Source: an uncultured Blautia sp. (GTDB taxonomy: Bacteria; Bacillota_A; Clostridia; Lachnospirales; Lachnospiraceae). From it: a stretch of DNA of 38,441 nucleotides. Shown in pieces: positions 16,576-27,780 of this stretch. The DNA lies in the NCBI GenBank assembly GCA_905209435.1, contig CAJLTE010000019.1, positions 1 through 38,441 on the forward strand, given 5' to 3'. Each line of letters starts with the position of its first letter. Position 1 is the stretch's first letter. The notes below the pieces were generated by a model. That model searched no databases, was not told where the DNA came from, and worked only from the letters and a program-made list of their open reading frames with translations. The position numbers and the translations under genes were made by a program.

Positions 16576-16590
16576 GTGAACAATTAAGAC

Positions 16591-16677
16591 AAGGGGAGCT
16601 TGTGTAAACAGGCTGAGAGTAAGCTGTATTGCTTTAACCCATAACCTGATTTGGATAATGCCAACGTAGGGAAAGTT
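16591..16677 (+). ncRNA. TPP riboswitch (THI element)
   Basis: The conserved thiamin pyrophosphate aptamer is readable in order: GGGGAGC (16593-16599), GGCTGAGAGT (16611-16620), AACCC (16636-16640), then ACCTGAT and TTGGATAATGCCAACGTAGG (16651-16670), ending in GAAAG. The CTGAGA, ACCTGAT and GGATAATGCCA blocks are diagnostic. An intrinsic terminator follows within 20 bases, so TPP binding should stop transcription before thiC. Confidence 0.97.
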
Positions 16678-16690
16678 ATAGTTCTTCCGG

Positions 16691-16725: not shown

Positions 16726-17127
16726 CTTTTTTATCCGAAAATATCAGAATATATCTCAGATATTTTTCCAGATTTAAGAAGTTTTATCCCTCTTGATTTG
16801 ATCTGTTTTTCTCTGGTCCTGGAATTTTGTATATCCTTTGAAATTCTGATATTGTAAATATCTTTTCGGATAGTTTCACTTTCATCTGTCGTTATCCGAC
16901 GCTCCCATTCTTAACTATCATCAGACAATAAAACTCATTATTTCTCATCTTGAAAATTACTTTTCAGGCAATCAAAATATTGTTTCTATTGTCATAACAG
17001 ACCGGGGGCACCACTCTCTGTTAACCAAGTAGTTTACTCAAAAACTTACGAATATGCGCAGGTGCAAGTCCCTGCTATATGCAGGAGGCGCAGTTCATTT
17101 AGCAGCCCGCAGTGCAGGGCAAGGAGG
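16726..17127 (+). promoter_or_regulatory. Long thiC leader with a second structured segment
   Basis: About 400 bases separate the riboswitch terminator from thiC. Bases 16726-16980 are AT-rich and I see no gene there. Bases 17056-17120 are GC-rich and can fold in competing ways: CCTGC (17071-17075) can pair with GCAGG at 17058-17062 or at 17081-17085, and GCCC (17105-17108) pairs with GGGC (17117-17120), touching AAGGAGG (17121-17127). This looks like a translational control element. It contains GGTGCAAGTCC, which recalls part of cobalamin riboswitches, but the other conserved blocks of that class are missing. Confidence 0.45.
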
Positions 17128-17132
17128 AAAAA

Positions 17133-18443
17133 ATGACACATTATACAACACAGATGGACGCAGCACGTCAAGGAATCATCACACCGCAGATGGAAATCGT
17201 AGCAGAAAAAGAACATTTTGATGTGGAAGAATTAAGAGAACTGATCGCAAAAGGGCAGGTTATCATTCCCTGTAATAAGAACCATAAATGCATCAGTCCC
17301 AGTGGTGTCGGTGCAAAGCTGACAACAAAGATCAATGTAAACTTAGGTGTTTCCAGAGACTGGAAAGACGTTGATATGGAATATGAGAAGGTACATTCTG
17401 CAGTAGAAATGGGCGCAGAAGCAATCATGGATCTCAGTTCTTACGGTGATACCAGAAGCTTCCGCCGCAAACTTACTTCTGAATGTCCGGCAATGATCGG
17501 TACTGTTCCGATCTATGATGCAGTAGTATATTATCACAAGGCGCTTGGCAAGATCACTTCTGAAGAATGGATTGATATTGTTCGTATGCATGCAGAAGAT
17601 GGTGTTGATTTCATGACAATTCACTGCGGAATGAACCGTGCAACCGCAGCACGTTTCAAGCAGAATAAACGCCTTATGAACATTGTTTCCAGGGGTGGCT
17701 CCATTATGTTTGCATGGATGGAAATGACAGGAAAAGAAAATCCTTTTTACGAACATTTCGATGAGATTCTGGATATCTGCAGAGAGTATGATATTACTTT
17801 AAGTCTGGGTGATGCATGCCGTCCGGGATGTCTTGCAGATGCTACAGATACCGCACAGATTGAAGAACTGATCACTCTTGGAGAGCTCACTAAACGTGCA
17901 TGGGAAAAAGATGTTCAGGTTATGATCGAAGGACCTGGACATATGCCGATAAACCAGATAGCAGCTAATATGGAGATTCAAAAAACACTGTGTCACGGTG
18001 CACCATTTTATGTACTTGGACCGCTTGTAACTGATGTTGCTCCGGGATATGACCACATCACTTCTGCGATTGGAGGTGCAATCGCTGCATACTCAGGCGC
18101 TGCATTTTTGTGCTATGTAACCCCTGCTGAACATCTCCGTCTGCCAAATGCTGCAGATGTCAAAGAGGGAATTATTGCCGCAAAGATTGCTGCTCATGCT
18201 GCTGATATTGCCAAGGGAATTCCTGGTGCAGCTGACTGGGATTATAAGATGAGTGAAGCAAGAAAGCGCCTTGACTGGGAAGAAATGTTCAAGCTCAGTA
18301 TGGACCCGGAGAAAGCAAGACGCTACCGTGCCGAGGCAAAGCCAGAGAAAGAAGATACCTGCAGTATGTGTGGTAACTTCTGCGCTGTTAAGAATACAAA
18401 CCGTATTCTGGATGGGGAGATTGTTACTATTTTTGACGAATGA
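17133..18443 (+). CDS. thiC: Phosphomethylpyrimidine synthase ThiC
   Basis: A 436-residue radical SAM enzyme that rearranges aminoimidazole ribotide into hydroxymethylpyrimidine phosphate for thiamin synthesis. Blocks include '[11 protein letters not shown]', '[12 protein letters not shown]', 'GTVPIYDAV', '[11 protein letters not shown]', '[10 protein letters not shown]', 'MIEGPGHMP', '[21 protein letters not shown]' and '[12 protein letters not shown]'. The cluster-binding cysteines near the C-terminus are C410, C413 and C417 (CSMCGNFC), the short clostridial spacing. It lacks the ~150-residue N-terminal extension of proteobacterial ThiC, as expected. I placed the start at the ATG at 17133, just after AAGGAGG, rather than at a GTG at 17112. 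It is controlled by the TPP riboswitch. No other thiamin gene is in the window. Confidence 0.97.
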
Positions 18444-22423: not shown

Positions 22424-23353
22424 TTATTTCACATTTTCCATCACAAATCTGTGTGCATTTCCATAGAAAATCTTCTCTGTCAGTTCTTCTGTAAAGCCAT
22501 GTTTCAGAAGTTCTTCTCTCAGAAACGGAATAGACTGAACCCCTTCTATTCCTGCCGGGAAAAGTCCGTCGCATCCATCAAAGTCACTTCCAATAGCAAG
22601 GCAGTCCTCTCCGCCCATCTCCAATACTGTATCCATATGCTTCATAAGATCAGAAATCTGTGGTTTCTCTCCTACAAATGGGGCAAAGAAATTCATTCCT
22701 ATGATTCCTTTTCTGCGGATCAGTTCTTTCAAGTGTTCTTTTTGCAGATTTCTCGGTGCATTCCATACTTCTCTGATATCAGAGTGAGAAGCCATTACCG
22801 ATCTGTCTGTCAGTTGAAACAGATCTTCTACTCCCTGATCTGACAGGTGGGAAATATCCATGACAATTTCCTGATCCGTCAGGGTTTTTACCATTTTTTT
22901 GCCTCTGGATGTCAGCCCTTTTGTCTGATCTGCGGTTGCTCCGCAGGCATATTCATTTTCATAATTCCAGGTCAGCATTGCAAAACGAAATCCCATCTCA
23001 CGGATCTTCTCCACATACTTACCCATGATAGATATATCCTCAATCGACAAAAATGCCGCTGCTTTTCTCTGTCTGCAGGCTTTCTCCATTTCCTCTCCGC
23101 TCAGACAAAGGGCAATCTTACGATTTTCTTCTGCAAGATAAGCCATGGCAAGGTTATAAATCCGCAGGAAATCTTTGTCAGGATTTTCTTTGTCCAGCTT
23201 AACTGCATCCTTCCATATTGCAAAAATCTGTGTATAATTTTCTACAAAATCTCCAATTCTCTTCAGGTCCAGATCACAGGAATTCTCTTCCAGTGTATCT
23301 CCTGGTTTTACAATTTCAGTCAGTGTATCTACATGACAGTCAAAATAATTCAT
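22424..23353 (-). CDS. Membrane/renal-type dipeptidase (M19 family)
   Basis: A 309-residue zinc metallopeptidase of the amidohydrolase-like fold. The first metal motif is H-x-D in 'YFDCHVDTLTEI'. The bridging glutamate lies in 'AAFLSIEDISIMG'. Later metal ligands are the histidines in 'VMDISHLSD' and 'VMASHSDIREV', with 'AIGSDFDG' near the C-terminus. Such enzymes hydrolyse dipeptides, often with D-residues. I chose the internal ATG at 23353 (MNYFDCHVDT) with AGGCGG just upstream. The in-frame extension to 23464 would add 37 residues unlike the family. The gap of 113 bases to the hydantoinase stop contains no obvious promoter. Confidence 0.88.
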   Translation of the reverse strand: MNYFDCHVDTLTEIVKPGDTLEENSCDLDLKRIGDFVENYTQIFAIWKDAVKLDKENPDKDFLRIYNLAMAYLAEENRKIALCLSGEEMEKACRQRKAAAFLSIEDISIMGKYVEKIREMGFRFAMLTWNYENEYACGATADQTKGLTSRGKKMVKTLTDQEIVMDISHLSDQGVEDLFQLTDRSVMASHSDIREVWNAPRNLQKEHLKELIRRKGIIGMNFFAPFVGEKPQISDLMKHMDTVLEMGGEDCLAIGSDFDGCDGLFPAGIEGVQSIPFLREELLKHGFTEELTEKIFYGNAHRFVMENVK

Positions 23354-23466: not shown

Positions 23467-24837
23467 TTATCCAAGATATTTCCCGGAACCTTTTTCTGCA
23501 TTCAGCTTACCATTCTTATATACTGTTTGTCCAGACTTGATTACCATCTGAATTTTTCCTTCCAGCTGTTTCCCTTCATAAATGGTATAATCCAGATTAC
23601 TTTTTCTGTTTTCCACATGAATTTCCGTATTTTCTCTTTCTGTGATCAGTACAAGATCTGCATCGCTTCCCGGCTGGATGCATCCCTTCTGCGGAAATCT
23701 GTGATAAAATCTGGCCGCATTTTCCGATGTAAGTTCTACAAATCTCTTCATAGACAGTCCTCTTTTCTTCACACCTTCTGAGAAAAGATACAGCATCCTT
23801 GTCTGAATTCCATCTACACCGCAGGGCACTGTCTCATAGGTTTTTCCATATTTGTCATATTTTGAATACGGGCAATGATCTGTAGAAAAAATATCTATCT
23901 TTCCATTCAGGATTCCTCTCCACAATTGTTCCACATCCTGCTGTTTTCGCAAAGGAGGAGTCATTGTATACAATGCCCCCTGTTTTCCTTCCAGTTTCTC
24001 ATCTGTAAATTCCAGATAATGGGGACAGGTTTCCAGAAGAAATCCTTCCGTATGTTTACCGGCTGTTCTCTGCTCTGACTGCAAGGCAACGGTTGCTCCG
24101 GCAGATGTATGGGCGATGCAAAGATTTACACCTGTATTCTCTGCAATTTTCTGCAATTGTTCTACTGCTTTTCTTTCAGAAATATCCGGTCTGGTAAACG
24201 CCAGCATGGACATATCTGAAGGATTTTTTACCTGTTTCTTCTGCTTCTCTATAATATCTTTTTCTTCTGCATGTACCAGAAAAGTGATTTTGTTTTTATC
24301 CGGAATCTTCCCGTATAGTTCTTTTATCGCATACTCTATTTCCTTCATGGTAAGGTCTGTATTGTCATATACTGTGAACAGTTTGAAATCTGTGATCCCG
24401 TAATCCAGGATTTTCTGTAATTCTTCTAACTGTCTTTCATAGTCCCTGGTGATCACAAAATGAAACGCATAGTCCACTGCCGAAGCTTTAGCTTCCTGCA
24501 TTCTTTTTTCTATGCAATGTGACGGTGATTCACCTTTCTCTGATTCGCAGAAATCAATAACTGTAGTTGTTCCTCCTGCAAGTGCCCCAAGAGAACCCGT
24601 ATAAAAATCGTCTTCTATCAGGATTTCTCCAAATCCTCCCAAATGTACATGCGCGTCAAACCCTCCCGGAACTACCCAGGACTCTTCGGCGTCCGTGACA
24701 TTTTCCTGTGGAAAATCTGACGGCAGTTCTTTCTGTACTGCTTTAATTTTTCCAGTATGATCATCATAAATAACACAGCCCCGGAATATTTCATCCGGGG
24801 TTACGATCTTTGCATTTATAATTGCCTGTTCTGACAT
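23467..24837 (-). CDS. Hydantoinase / dihydropyrimidinase-type amidohydrolase
   Basis: A 456-residue cyclic amidohydrolase that opens hydantoin, dihydropyrimidine or allantoin-like rings. The first metal motif is 'GGFDAHVHLGG'. The lysine expected to be carboxylated lies in 'GITDFKLFTVYD'. Further histidines are in 'FLVHAEE' and 'LCIAHTSAG', and the catalytic aspartate is in 'DIFSTDHCPYSK'. The domain is complete and the length normal. AAGGAAG precedes the ATG at 24837; the in-frame upstream extension is out-of-frame xanthine-dehydrogenase sequence and is not coding. The start overlaps the upstream molybdenum-subunit stop by 22 bases. Hydantoinases accompany xanthine dehydrogenases in anaerobic purine-degradation clusters, which matches the remnants upstream. 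Confidence 0.9.
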   Translation of the reverse strand: MSEQAIINAKIVTPDEIFRGCVIYDDHTGKIKAVQKELPSDFPQENVTDAEESWVVPGGFDAHVHLGGFGEILIEDDFYTGSLGALAGGTTTVIDFCESEKGESPSHCIEKRMQEAKASAVDYAFHFVITRDYERQLEELQKILDYGITDFKLFTVYDNTDLTMKEIEYAIKELYGKIPDKNKITFLVHAEEKDIIEKQKKQVKNPSDMSMLAFTRPDISERKAVEQLQKIAENTGVNLCIAHTSAGATVALQSEQRTAGKHTEGFLLETCPHYLEFTDEKLEGKQGALYTMTPPLRKQQDVEQLWRGILNGKIDIFSTDHCPYSKYDKYGKTYETVPCGVDGIQTRMLYLFSEGVKKRGLSMKRFVELTSENAARFYHRFPQKGCIQPGSDADLVLITERENTEIHVENRKSNLDYTIYEGKQLEGKIQMVIKSGQTVYKNGKLNAEKGSGKYLG

Positions 24838-25961
24838 AAAATATCTTCCTTTCTTATCGGCAGTTTGTGAAAATATATTCCTGTAGCATTGCTTACTGCA
24901 TTGCACACAGCTGCTGCACTTGGAACTGTGGCACATTCTCCCACACTCTTGGCTCCACAGGTATCCGGCATGATTCCAAAAAGGCTGCTTCCGTGAGGAG
25001 CTGCTGCCATCCCCACACCGATCCGGTATCTTCCGTTTTCTTTTGCTGATCTTTTCTGTTCCTGCACAGCTTCTTCCCATTCAAACAGGCGTTTTCCTTC
25101 TTCCACACAGTCTTTGATCCGCAGATTTCCAAGCTTTTCTCCATTCTGATCGCAGGTCTTTGGATCATGCATATTCATCTTTTCAAATGTACAGAAATCC
25201 ATTCCAAGTCTATTGGCAATCTGGTTAAACTGGTTATTTAACGCAAAAAAGAGCTGTGGAGATCCGAACCCTCTCATAGCTCCCGCAATGGAACGATTGG
25301 TGTAAACAGGAATTGCATGATAATGCATATTCGGGATAGAAAATATCTTGAAAAATTTTCCACCCGCCGCCCAGGCAACGCTCATGGTAGCTCCTGTCTG
25401 TGCCCCTGCACTGAGATAAACTTTATAATCGCAGGCTGTAATATGTCCGTCTTTTTTTACTCCTGTCCGGACATAAATCCTTTCTGCATGTCGGGTAGTT
25501 CCTGACTGGATATCCTCTCTTCTGGTATAAACGATCTTCACGGGATGTCCGGTTTTCATAGCAAGGAGCGCGCATACCGGCTCTGTCACCAGGTCAATCT
25601 TTCCGCCAAATCCACCTCCCATTGCAGGACTTAATACCCGTACCTTATTCATTGGCATATGAAAAATCTTTGCCAGATTTTTTCTCTGTCCAAATACATC
25701 CTGAGATGGTGTATAGACAGTAAGTTTTCCGTCCATATCATAATCACATAAAGATACATGTGGTTCCATAGGCGCATGATGAATTGCCGGAACTTCAAAT
25801 ACATCTTCATAAATTTCATCTGCCTGTGCAAATCCTTCTTCCAGATTTCCACAGCTTAAGTCTACTTCTTCCAGGATATTTCCATGTTCATGAATGGGAC
25901 AGGCCTCTTCTTTCGCCGCTTCTTCCGGATCCAGATAAAAAGGCAGTTCTTCATCCTGCTG
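24816..25961 (-). pseudogene. Xanthine-dehydrogenase-type molybdenum subunit, truncated and internally deleted
   Basis: About 381 codons of a protein normally around 750 residues. Recognisable parts are 'EEVDLSCGNLEEGFAQADEIYEDVFEVPAIHHAPMEPH', 'SPAMGGGFGGKID', 'YTRREDIQSGTTRHA' and 'AMRGFGSPQLFFALN'. The first ~120 residues, including the start, are missing; the homology begins at ~25961, fused to permease sequence. A second break lies near 24970: 'GIMPDTCG' jumps directly to 'AKSVGECATVPSAAAV', which in family members lies ~250 residues later, so the central cofactor-binding part is gone although the frame is kept. The molybdenum domain cannot function. The tail overlaps the hydantoinase start. 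Confidence 0.85.
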
Positions 25962-26667
25962 ACAGACCATCCATAATCTTATGCTGTACACCAAGAACTT
26001 CCATGCTTCCTGCAAGTCCTCCAAGGCCACCGGACACAAGCATTGCCACCATAACCATTTTTTTCACCGGCATTCCTGCATATGCTGCAACAGCGATCAG
26101 GATTCCAATGGTAAGCTGTGTCTTTGGAACCAGAAGTGGAAGCTGTGCACTTTCCAGAATGTTTTCGCTCTGTGGATAAGTACCTTTCTCTTCTTTGATC
26201 GGACCATTTACCATGTACTGTACAATATAGATTGCGATGTAGTTCATCATAACGGTTGTGATCATCTCACTGGCCTTAAATCTGTTCTTGAGCCATCCTA
26301 CGATCCCACCCCAGAATGCTCCGCCGATAAATCCTGCTGCCAGACAGACCAGAATGTGAAGTGCCATAGGAAGTTTCAGATAAATACCGGCTATGGCGCT
26401 GAACAGTCCGCCCATATAAAGCTGACCTTCAATTCCAATATTGATCAGCCCGCACTTATAAGCAAATCCATAACTCAGACCTACAAAAATCATGGTTGTC
26501 GTTTTCACAAAAGTTCCTGCTGTCGCATTTTTGCTTCCAAATGCTCCAAGCAGCATAGATTTGTAAACGCTCAGCGGATTCTCTCCTACCAATGCGATCA
26601 CGACTGCCCCAAGCACCAGAGCAAGCACAATCGACAATACAGGTTTCAAAATTTTCTTGATGTTCAT
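25951..26667 (-). pseudogene. BMP-type nucleoside ABC permease, internally deleted and truncated
   Basis: The 238 codons begin normally: GAGGAGG before ATG 26667, then MNIKKILKPVLSIVLALVLGA, 'GFAYKCGLINIGIEGQLYMGG' and 'FKASEMITTVMMNYIAIYIVQYM', all typical of guanosine/nucleoside permeases (NupB/YufP type). At ~26090, 'LLIAVAAY' passes straight into 'AGMPVKKMVMVAMLVSGGLGGLAG', where relatives have about 35-40 further residues, so a segment seems lost in frame. After 'HKIMDGLSAG' the gene ends in a TGA (25953-25951) created at the junction with the xanthine-dehydrogenase fragment. Relatives continue for ~100 residues and are followed by a second permease. A junction within CAGCAGGAT fits deletion at short homology. 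Confidence 0.8.
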
Positions 26668-26720
26668 TGTTCTTCCTCCTCGATATCTTTGCTTTTCTTC
26701 AGATTCCCGGCAAACTCTGT
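26664..26720 (-). pseudogene. Possible 3' remnant of an ABC ATPase gene
   Basis: Upstream of the permease, one frame reads ...TEFAGNLKKSKDIEEEEQ and stops with a TGA that overlaps the permease ATG. An acidic tail ending at a translationally coupled permease start is what the ATPase gene of a BMP-type transporter would leave. It abuts the leader terminator at 26726 with no room for the binding-protein gene or the rest of the ATPase, so both seem deleted. No ATPase motif is left, hence low certainty. Confidence 0.35.
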
Positions 26721-26725
26721 GCAAA

Positions 26726-26773
26726 AAAAGAAGGGCGTTTTGATATTCATTTCTATCAAAACGCCCTTCTTTT
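26726..26773 (-). terminator. Perfect 20-bp terminator hairpin in the leader
   Basis: The arms 26726-26745 and 26754-26773 are perfectly complementary, with an 8-nt loop. On the minus strand seven T follow. It stands between the promoter at 26940-26968 and all downstream genes of the operon, as in a riboswitch-controlled or attenuated leader. Confidence 0.9.
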
Positions 26774-26781
26774 AATCAAAA

Positions 26782-26866
26782 ATTGTACAAAAAAAGCACA
26801 TGCCATATTCTATGTGAATTCTGACACACCGGTGTCACTCCCTTCACGCAGGACAGGATGTACAAT
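26782..26866 (-). ncRNA. Candidate structured leader RNA of unknown class
   Basis: TGTACAAT/ATTGTACA (26859-26866 with 26782-26789) form an 8-bp closing stem. Inside it, GTGAA/TTCAC (26843-26847 with 26814-26818) and TGACAC/GTGTCA (26832-26837 with 26822-26827) form a two-part arm separated by a GGGAG/GAA internal loop and capped by four bases. On the minus strand it lies ~75 bases after the predicted start site and ends 9 bases before the terminator. The organisation is that of a metabolite riboswitch. I do not recognise the class: the guanine aptamer and ykkC motifs are absent. Confidence 0.55.
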
Positions 26867-26939
26867 CAATTTATTCCAATTTATAAATTAATCACGGAGA
26901 CCTTAAATATTTGCCGTATTCAATTTTTTTATTGATGAT

Positions 26940-26968
26940 AAATTATCACAAGTGTTTTTTATTGTCAA
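26940..26968 (-). promoter_or_regulatory. Promoter of the purine-type operon leader
   Basis: Read on the minus strand: TTGACA (26968-26963), 17 bp, TAATTT (26945-26940). The -35 is perfect and the -10 is moderate. The region from here to 27061 is very AT-rich, with no gene. Confidence 0.6.
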
Positions 26969-27061: not shown

Positions 27062-27718
27062 TTACTCTTCACTCTCATCTTCAGAATGTTCTGTATCTAT
27101 GCCAAAACGGATAGTTACATACTGCTTGATCAGCTCTACACAACGCTCCCATCCAATTCTGTCACTGTTTAATGTAAAGTCATAATTGATTGGATTTCTC
27201 CAGTCCCCACCTGCATAGCATTTATAATATTCATACCTGTATTTATCTGTTTTTTTGATCAGTTCTTCTGCTCGTTTCGGAGTTACATTCAGTCTTTTAC
27301 AAATTCTGTCCACACAGGCATGACGTGGTGCTTCAATGTAAACACTGATCACATTATTGAAATTTCTCAGGACATGATCCGCACATTTTCCAACAATTAT
27401 GCAGGATTGTGTCATGGCAAGATCACGGATAATTTCTGCCTGAATCTGAAACAGATGAAGATCTGATACAAACTCTGATTCCATCGGAACTGCATTTTTC
27501 AGTATCGGAACTTTCTCCAGCCAATTGGAAACGTAAGTTCCTCTCAGCTTCTCATCTACCTGCATAAATTCATCCTTATCAATTCCACTATAGTCCGATG
27601 CCATCTCCAGAATCTGATTCTCATAACATGGAATCCCCAGTTCTTTCGAGAGCATTTTCCCAATTTCTTTACCACCACTGCCGAATCCGCGCGCAATCGT
27701 GATCACGTAATTCTCCAT
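27062..27718 (-). CDS. Cytidylate kinase-like family protein
   Basis: A 218-residue P-loop protein. The nucleotide-binding loop is 'ITIARGFGSGGKEIGKMLSKELGIPCYE', which matches the cytidylate-kinase-like family frequent in clostridia. Further blocks are 'CIIVGKCADHVLRN', 'VYIEAPRHACVDRICKRLNVTPKRAEELIKKTDKYRYEYYKCY' and 'YDFTLNSDRIG'. The lid and substrate region differ from true CMP kinase, so the substrate is uncertain. I chose ATG 27718, preceded by GAAAGG; the upstream in-frame codons lie in the leader. Its promoter (27797-27824) is followed immediately by a terminator-like hairpin, so expression may be attenuated. It has an acidic C-terminal tail. Confidence 0.85.
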   Translation of the reverse strand: MENYVITIARGFGSGGKEIGKMLSKELGIPCYENQILEMASDYSGIDKDEFMQVDEKLRGTYVSNWLEKVPILKNAVPMESEFVSDLHLFQIQAEIIRDLAMTQSCIIVGKCADHVLRNFNNVISVYIEAPRHACVDRICKRLNVTPKRAEELIKKTDKYRYEYYKCYAGGDWRNPINYDFTLNSDRIGWERCVELIKQYVTIRFGIDTEHSEDESEE

Positions 27719-27748
27719 AGACCTTTCTCCCTTCCTGAAAATGGAAAC

Positions 27749-27780
27749 AAAAAAGAGCCATTGCATAACTGCAATGACTC
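27749..27780 (-). terminator. Leader terminator (attenuator) before the cytidylate-kinase-like gene
   Basis: CATTGCA (27759-27765) pairs with TGCAATG (27770-27776), closed by GAG/CTC, and six T follow on the minus strand. It begins about ten bases after the predicted start of transcription and ends 31 bases before the ATG, leaving no room for another promoter. It may also end transcripts from the hexosaminidase gene. Confidence 0.7.

Follow-up and report, generated by a model that had tools for sequence, protein, structure and literature searches.

Probable stump of a uricolysis-like operon behind a conserved leader RNA in an uncultured Blautia sp.

We analyzed a 38,441-nt stretch of DNA from an uncultured Blautia sp. 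(contig CAJLTE010000019.1), hereafter called the window, to whose whole length all coordinates refer. The subject is a minus-strand locus that includes a gene for a hydantoinase/dihydropyrimidinase-like protein and appears to be what is left of a much longer catabolic operon. In the direction of transcription, a hexosaminidase-like gene and a cytidylate-kinase-like gene are followed by a leader RNA with a terminator-like hairpin, a permease remnant, an XdhA-type molybdenum-subunit remnant, the hydantoinase gene, an M19 dipeptidase-family gene and a histidine phosphatase gene (HisPhos). The name hexosaminidase-like, for the gene beyond the cytidylate-kinase-like gene, is our guess and rests on no family search. 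The start of the hydantoinase gene overlaps the stop of the XdhA remnant by 22 nt. An earlier note on this DNA had read the locus as a purine-type transport/oxidation operon reduced by separate internal deletions with an intact hydantoinase downstream, and the hydantoinase frame is indeed complete (Table 1). The protein scores 332.4 bits against the TIGR02033 dihydropyrimidinase model, below the curated cut-off of 393.25, and residues H63, H65, K152, H189, H243 and D320, which we take to be the metal-site His, Lys and Asp, are invariant in all 15 alignment rows, the window included.

A genome scan with the hydantoinase as the lone query gave no confirmed relative; a second scan yielded G001, the genome of an uncultured Mediterraneibacter sp., whose contigs 156 (L116) and 341 (L117) hold the counterpart of the locus. 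L116 opens with the last part of a 23S rRNA gene and with a tRNA gene and spans the leader to the hydantoinase start, L117 carries the remaining hydantoinase, M19 and the kinase-like gene, and we infer that the two adjoin to give one operon. Its order is leader, permease 1, permease 2, BMP binding protein, ATPase, aminohydrolase, XdhA-like, iron-sulfur (FeS), FAD, SsnA-like, DHODH/ferredoxin, YgeY, XdhA-like, flavodoxin-like, FeS, XdhA-like and hydantoinase. Judged by these genes, the intact operon is uricolysis-like, with a BMP-type ABC transporter and three XdhA-like subunits in roughly 20 kb; the label purine-type likewise would follow from gene content. L116 permease 1 and the last L116 XdhA-like protein are 75% and 73% identical to the window pieces. 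The L116 operon supplies the segments missing from the window, which bears out the view of an operon cut by separate deletions.

Comparison of the permease and XdhA translations with full-length relatives, the check proposed in the earlier note, revealed the loss of 28 and 244 internal codons, respectively. Three of the four junctions claimed there, named A, B and C here, were located by alignment to L116 or to P0247 (cluster of 93), a full-length XdhA of 751 amino acids that is 93% identical to the remnant over 341 residues. Junctions A and C keep the reading frame; the note had likewise counted two in-frame junctions. In the genus of G001, each of the nine permease matches ends at query residues 213-218, the position of junction A, within a frame of 343-371 amino acids. 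At junction B, window position 25961 pairs with L116 position 1599 and window position 25954 with L116 position 17994; the frame is broken, and the permease stop lies at 25951-25953. The sequence CAGCAGGAT, said to be shared at this permease-XdhA join, occurs in the window; in L116 the 3′ flank has GTGGAATATGAAG instead, and a 9-bp repeat there is thus not shown. With L116 as a proxy for the parent DNA, no long shared repeat was visible at this 16.4-kb junction. At junction C, the stretch of P0247 that is missing has Cys-Gly codons at either end, and the loss measured against L116 is about 730 bp. Other full-length XdhA proteins of close relatives, P0249 and P0248, are 88% and 85% identical to the remnant. 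The longest contigs of P0249 and of the hydantoinase P0005 are both 16711, and those of P0248 and P0006 are both 54921, which suggests that full-length XdhA and hydantoinase lie on one contig. In Pfam, the remnant retains the first molybdopterin-binding domain alone, whereas the L116 XdhA adds the second and the hammerhead domain.

The fourth claimed junction, from the leader terminator to an ATPase tail near 26720, was rejected. Permease 1 lies directly behind the leader in L116, and the ATPase comes fourth; the supposed ATPase tail is the spacer between leader and permease, which aligns with the L116 spacer (local score 30, equalled or exceeded by 10 of 1000 dinucleotide shuffles).

Table 1. 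Features of the locus in window coordinates.
Feature	Coordinates	Strand	Remarks
Junction A	26091..26093	-	84 bp (28 codons) missing in permease 1 relative to L116; frame kept
Junction B	25954..25961	-	about 16.4 kb missing, permease 1 to last XdhA-type gene
Junction C	24955..24971	-	732 bp (244 codons) missing in XdhA gene relative to P0247; frame kept
Permease 1 remnant, BPD_transp_2	25951..26667	-	without 28 internal codons and the last ~70
XdhA-type molybdenum-subunit remnant	24816..25970	-	ATG at 25970; first ~129 and another 244, internal, residues missing
Hydantoinase/dihydropyrimidinase-like protein	23467..24837	-	intact frame, 456 amino acids
12-bp direct repeat CTGGAAGGAAAA, copy 1	23983..23994	-	start of P0007 deletion
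12-bp direct repeat CTGGAAGGAAAA, copy 2	23554..23565	-	end of P0007 deletion
Leader RNA	26790..26907	-	conserved with L116 591-706
Promoter-like TTGACA-N15-GATAAT	26942..26968	-	script pattern; GATATT in L116 538-564; candidate only
Terminator-like hairpin and U run behind leader	26726..26773	-	hairpin also in L116, bases changed
M19 dipeptidase-family gene	22424..23353	-	behind hydantoinase, likewise in G001, L001, L003, L008
Cytidylate-kinase-like gene (PF13189)	27062..27766	-	upstream of leader

Two of the junctions recur elsewhere. P0121 (391 amino acids, cluster of 55) starts in permease codons read out of frame and continues across the XdhA junction, and so carries B and C, and P0122 (cluster of 6, from another source, ena) crosses junction C; each is listed with one contig, and neither covers junction A. 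Their occurrence in proteins encoded on other contigs marks B and C as natural, not as a one-off misassembly. The hydantoinase itself occurs in a broken form. P0007 (cluster of 46) is near-identical to the window protein minus 143 codons, in frame, and its cluster is smaller than that of the intact hydantoinase P0001 (110 members). The window carries the perfect 12-bp repeat precisely at both ends of the P0007 deletion, and this pair is the clearest view of the deletion mechanism. The loss between the repeats speaks against strict selection for the hydantoinase.

We also read the same site in five genomes of the genus of G322 whose HisPhos is 78-98% identical to that of the window, and in G808 at 71%. 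The hydantoinase was absent from all six sites. The whole block from M19 to the kinase is absent in G791, G827, G748 and G782, of which G827 and G748 also lack the hexosaminidase-like gene at the site; G799 has kept M19 alone, flanked by the hexosaminidase-like gene and HisPhos. In G808, the M19 beside HisPhos is a different one; it lies on another branch of the M19 tree, which argues against taking all congeneric M19 genes at this place for operon remnants. Among 64 congeneric genomes no hydantoinase ortholog was found: 39 have a match at E <= 1e-40, with 36% as the best identity among the matches listed. In the M19 tree (10 rows), the window and G799 are joined with support 99/99. HisPhos of G791, G827, G748 and G782 is 80-98% identical to that of the window, compared with 78% for G799, yet those four are without M19. 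From the tree and these identities, the block may be either ancestral with many losses or a later acquisition.

The XdhA remnant shows no sign of decay apart from the deletions. At 351 sites conserved in two outgroups, it has 5 window-specific changes against 5 sister-specific ones, and 2 of the window's 5 lie in the joint; with four outgroups, the counts are 4 and 4 at 260 sites. For the hydantoinase, window- and sister-specific changes number 8 and 5, 6 and 6, and 9 and 15 with three sisters (362 sites). As the XdhA piece has no stop, no frameshift and no faster protein change, the deletions would be young.

These results suggest, with a probability that we put at about 85%, that the locus is the stump of a uricolysis-like catabolic operon undergoing ordinary, young, stepwise deletional loss. 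The window retains the leader, a piece of permease 1, a piece of the last XdhA-like gene, the hydantoinase and M19. Deletions may arise by misalignment between short direct repeats, as the perfect 12-bp pair would indicate for P0007; for the window's own junctions, where the parent DNA is represented by a relative, short homology is all that may be proposed. Transcription from the old leader may still reach the hydantoinase, and the 22-nt overlap may couple its translation to that of the XdhA piece. The enzyme cannot run the old pathway from this locus, because the transporter, the oxidoreductases and the SsnA-like step are gone there, and it is probably on its way out. Bacteria commonly lose genes by clean deletion (PMC5447742), and deletional decay is known for bacterial pseudogenes (PMC2916853, PMC5447742). 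The window operon resembles such decay in that superfluous genes are lost by deletion and differs in that the process is seen partway, with a population variant deleted further and congeneric sites that are emptier still. Stages by which a purine-type operon may vanish from a lineage are on view: an intact relative, a partly deleted locus, a variant whose last enzyme is broken, and congeners that have kept M19 alone or nothing at the site. Should the operon act on urate or purines related to it, losses of this kind would alter which community members can do so.

Several points weigh against this interpretation. No assembly other than that of the window showed junction A. An intact allele of the window's own species was not seen, and the G001 proteins are just 61-75% identical; such an allele, at about 93% identity, may hide inside the P0247 cluster, where it would be indistinguishable. 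The missing genes could sit elsewhere in the window's genome, beyond the stretch read. Given that no hydantoinase ortholog was found in the genus, the block may have been acquired already reduced. The counts of frame-keeping deletions also leave room for weak selection on frame.

A trimming of the operon by selection, which would place the hydantoinase and M19 under the old leader and promoter for a new role, is unlikely; this proposal is akin to the selection for hydantoinase expression raised in the earlier note. The leader, hydantoinase and M19 are intact, the metal-site residues are kept, the P0001 cluster outnumbers that of P0007, two of the deletions are in frame and the overlap between XdhA and hydantoinase has been preserved. 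However, two in-frame deletions out of three in the window have a chance probability of 7/27 (0.26), and three of four, counting P0007, one of 0.11; both counts are within chance expectation. The proposal also fits poorly with the common P0007 variant lacking 143 hydantoinase codons, with the six congeneric sites devoid of the gene and with no ortholog having been found among the 64 congeners. We consider it very unlikely that the permease and XdhA pieces form a genuine short subfamily, as their open frames free of stops might suggest: full-length P0247 is 93% identical to the XdhA piece with the gap internal, and the piece keeps one molybdopterin-binding domain where the L116 protein has the hammerhead domain and the second molybdopterin-binding domain as well. 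An assembly chimera, to which the odd gene order and the single witness for junction A would point, is the most improbable, being largely refuted for B and C by P0121 and P0122 unless these share one read set.

Gene loss itself is ordinary, and the surprise of this locus is the conserved leader, which matched no known RNA family at threshold. It comprises an AT-rich hairpin, a long helix P1, an inner helix, a GGGAG/GAA internal loop and a terminal hairpin. Mean column identity between the window and L116 leaders is 88%, compared with 71% for the permease codons, whose synonymous differences are near saturation (pS 0.72). Of 33 base pairs, 8 vary and all 8 still pair, 3 of them changed on both sides; slid partners gave 32 to 46% paired, 67 of 500 shuffles reached the observed counts, and two sequences cannot prove covariation. 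Relative to shuffles, the L116 leader folds far more stably (z -4.7, 0/200), and the effect is slight for the window leader (z -1.3, 26/200). The claim that promoter, leader and terminator are intact stood for the leader; a promoter-like pattern and a terminator-like hairpin are visible, yet neither was listed by a scan. The consensus scan, which allowed spacings of 16-18 nt and thus did not cover the 15-nt spacing here, listed no sigma-70-like site immediately upstream of the leader on the minus strand, and the hairpin was absent from the terminator scan.

Searches for further copies found the leader in two organisms only, the window and G001. No Rfam 15 family reached its gathering score for either leader, and relaxed Rfam settings gave none at E up to 10 over 26780-26920 and elsewhere none or sub-threshold matches to unrelated families. 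Among 392 genomes of the order, a leader model with stricter filters hit a single one, which was G001. The leader pattern matched 7 of 397 genomes of the family against 2 control matches, G001 being the sole true leader; the other six were coding or unrelated in context by eye, a viral match was unrelated too, and Rfam gave nothing relevant on these 8 loci. Across 32 loci, the model recovered the two founding sequences together with a weak antisense hit on L116, and none in 11 further congeneric or G001 loci. Purine-class riboswitches comprise the guanine type and its variants (PMC9295807). The window resembles them in having a structured leader and a terminator-like hairpin ahead of purine-type genes, but the leader reaches no Rfam gathering score. 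Its secondary structure differs from that of the purine class. Tentatively, the leader might be an undescribed riboswitch-like cis-regulatory RNA that senses a purine or breakdown product, regulates a second and divergent uricolysis-like operon of gut Lachnospiraceae and outlives the genes of that operon.

We compared the intact operon with the anaerobic uricolytic gene cluster of gut bacteria, exemplified in PMC12507026 by E. coli ygf/yge and by C. difficile with UacX and UacY. L116 shares with the cluster as described there the XdhA/XdhD-type subunits, SsnA-like and HyuA-like amidohydrolases, YgeY and a UacX-like DHO_dh-ferredoxin, and differs from it in extra XdhA-like subunits, the BMP-type ABC transporter, M19 and kinase-like genes. 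SsnA, the YgfK/UacX reductase and YgeY are absent from the window locus, and of XdhD/XdhA it has the remnant alone. In L116, XdhA is full length, the SsnA-like copy scores 238.6 against an NCBIfam cut-off of 444, a UacX-like protein combines DHO_dh with Fer4, and YgeY scores 492.7 bits on NF009555 (cut-off 321) and 250.2 on TIGR03526 (below 321.5). Contig 139 of G001 (L178 1-10783) holds a canonical-looking uricolytic cluster, with SsnA, YgfK and hydantoinase above their cut-offs, a xanthine-permease-like protein, YqeB/YqeC and a partial YgeX. Because G001 separately carries this above-cut-off cluster, the window-type operon is a second, divergent uricolysis-like cluster. For work on ligands and substrates, the leader and the divergent second cluster of G001 offer concrete targets.

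The M19 gene adjoins the hydantoinase in the window and in the L117, L001, L003 and L008 clusters and was not found in L006 and L007; as a guess from this arrangement, M19 might stand in for ureido cleavage by YgeW/UacY. The cytidylate-kinase-like gene lies downstream of M19 in G001 (L117 2340-2969) and upstream of the leader in the window, which represents a rearrangement. Farther along the window, a thiamine pyrophosphate (TPP) riboswitch occupies 16582-16690 on the plus strand, ahead of an open reading frame at 17112-18443 that we take to be thiC.

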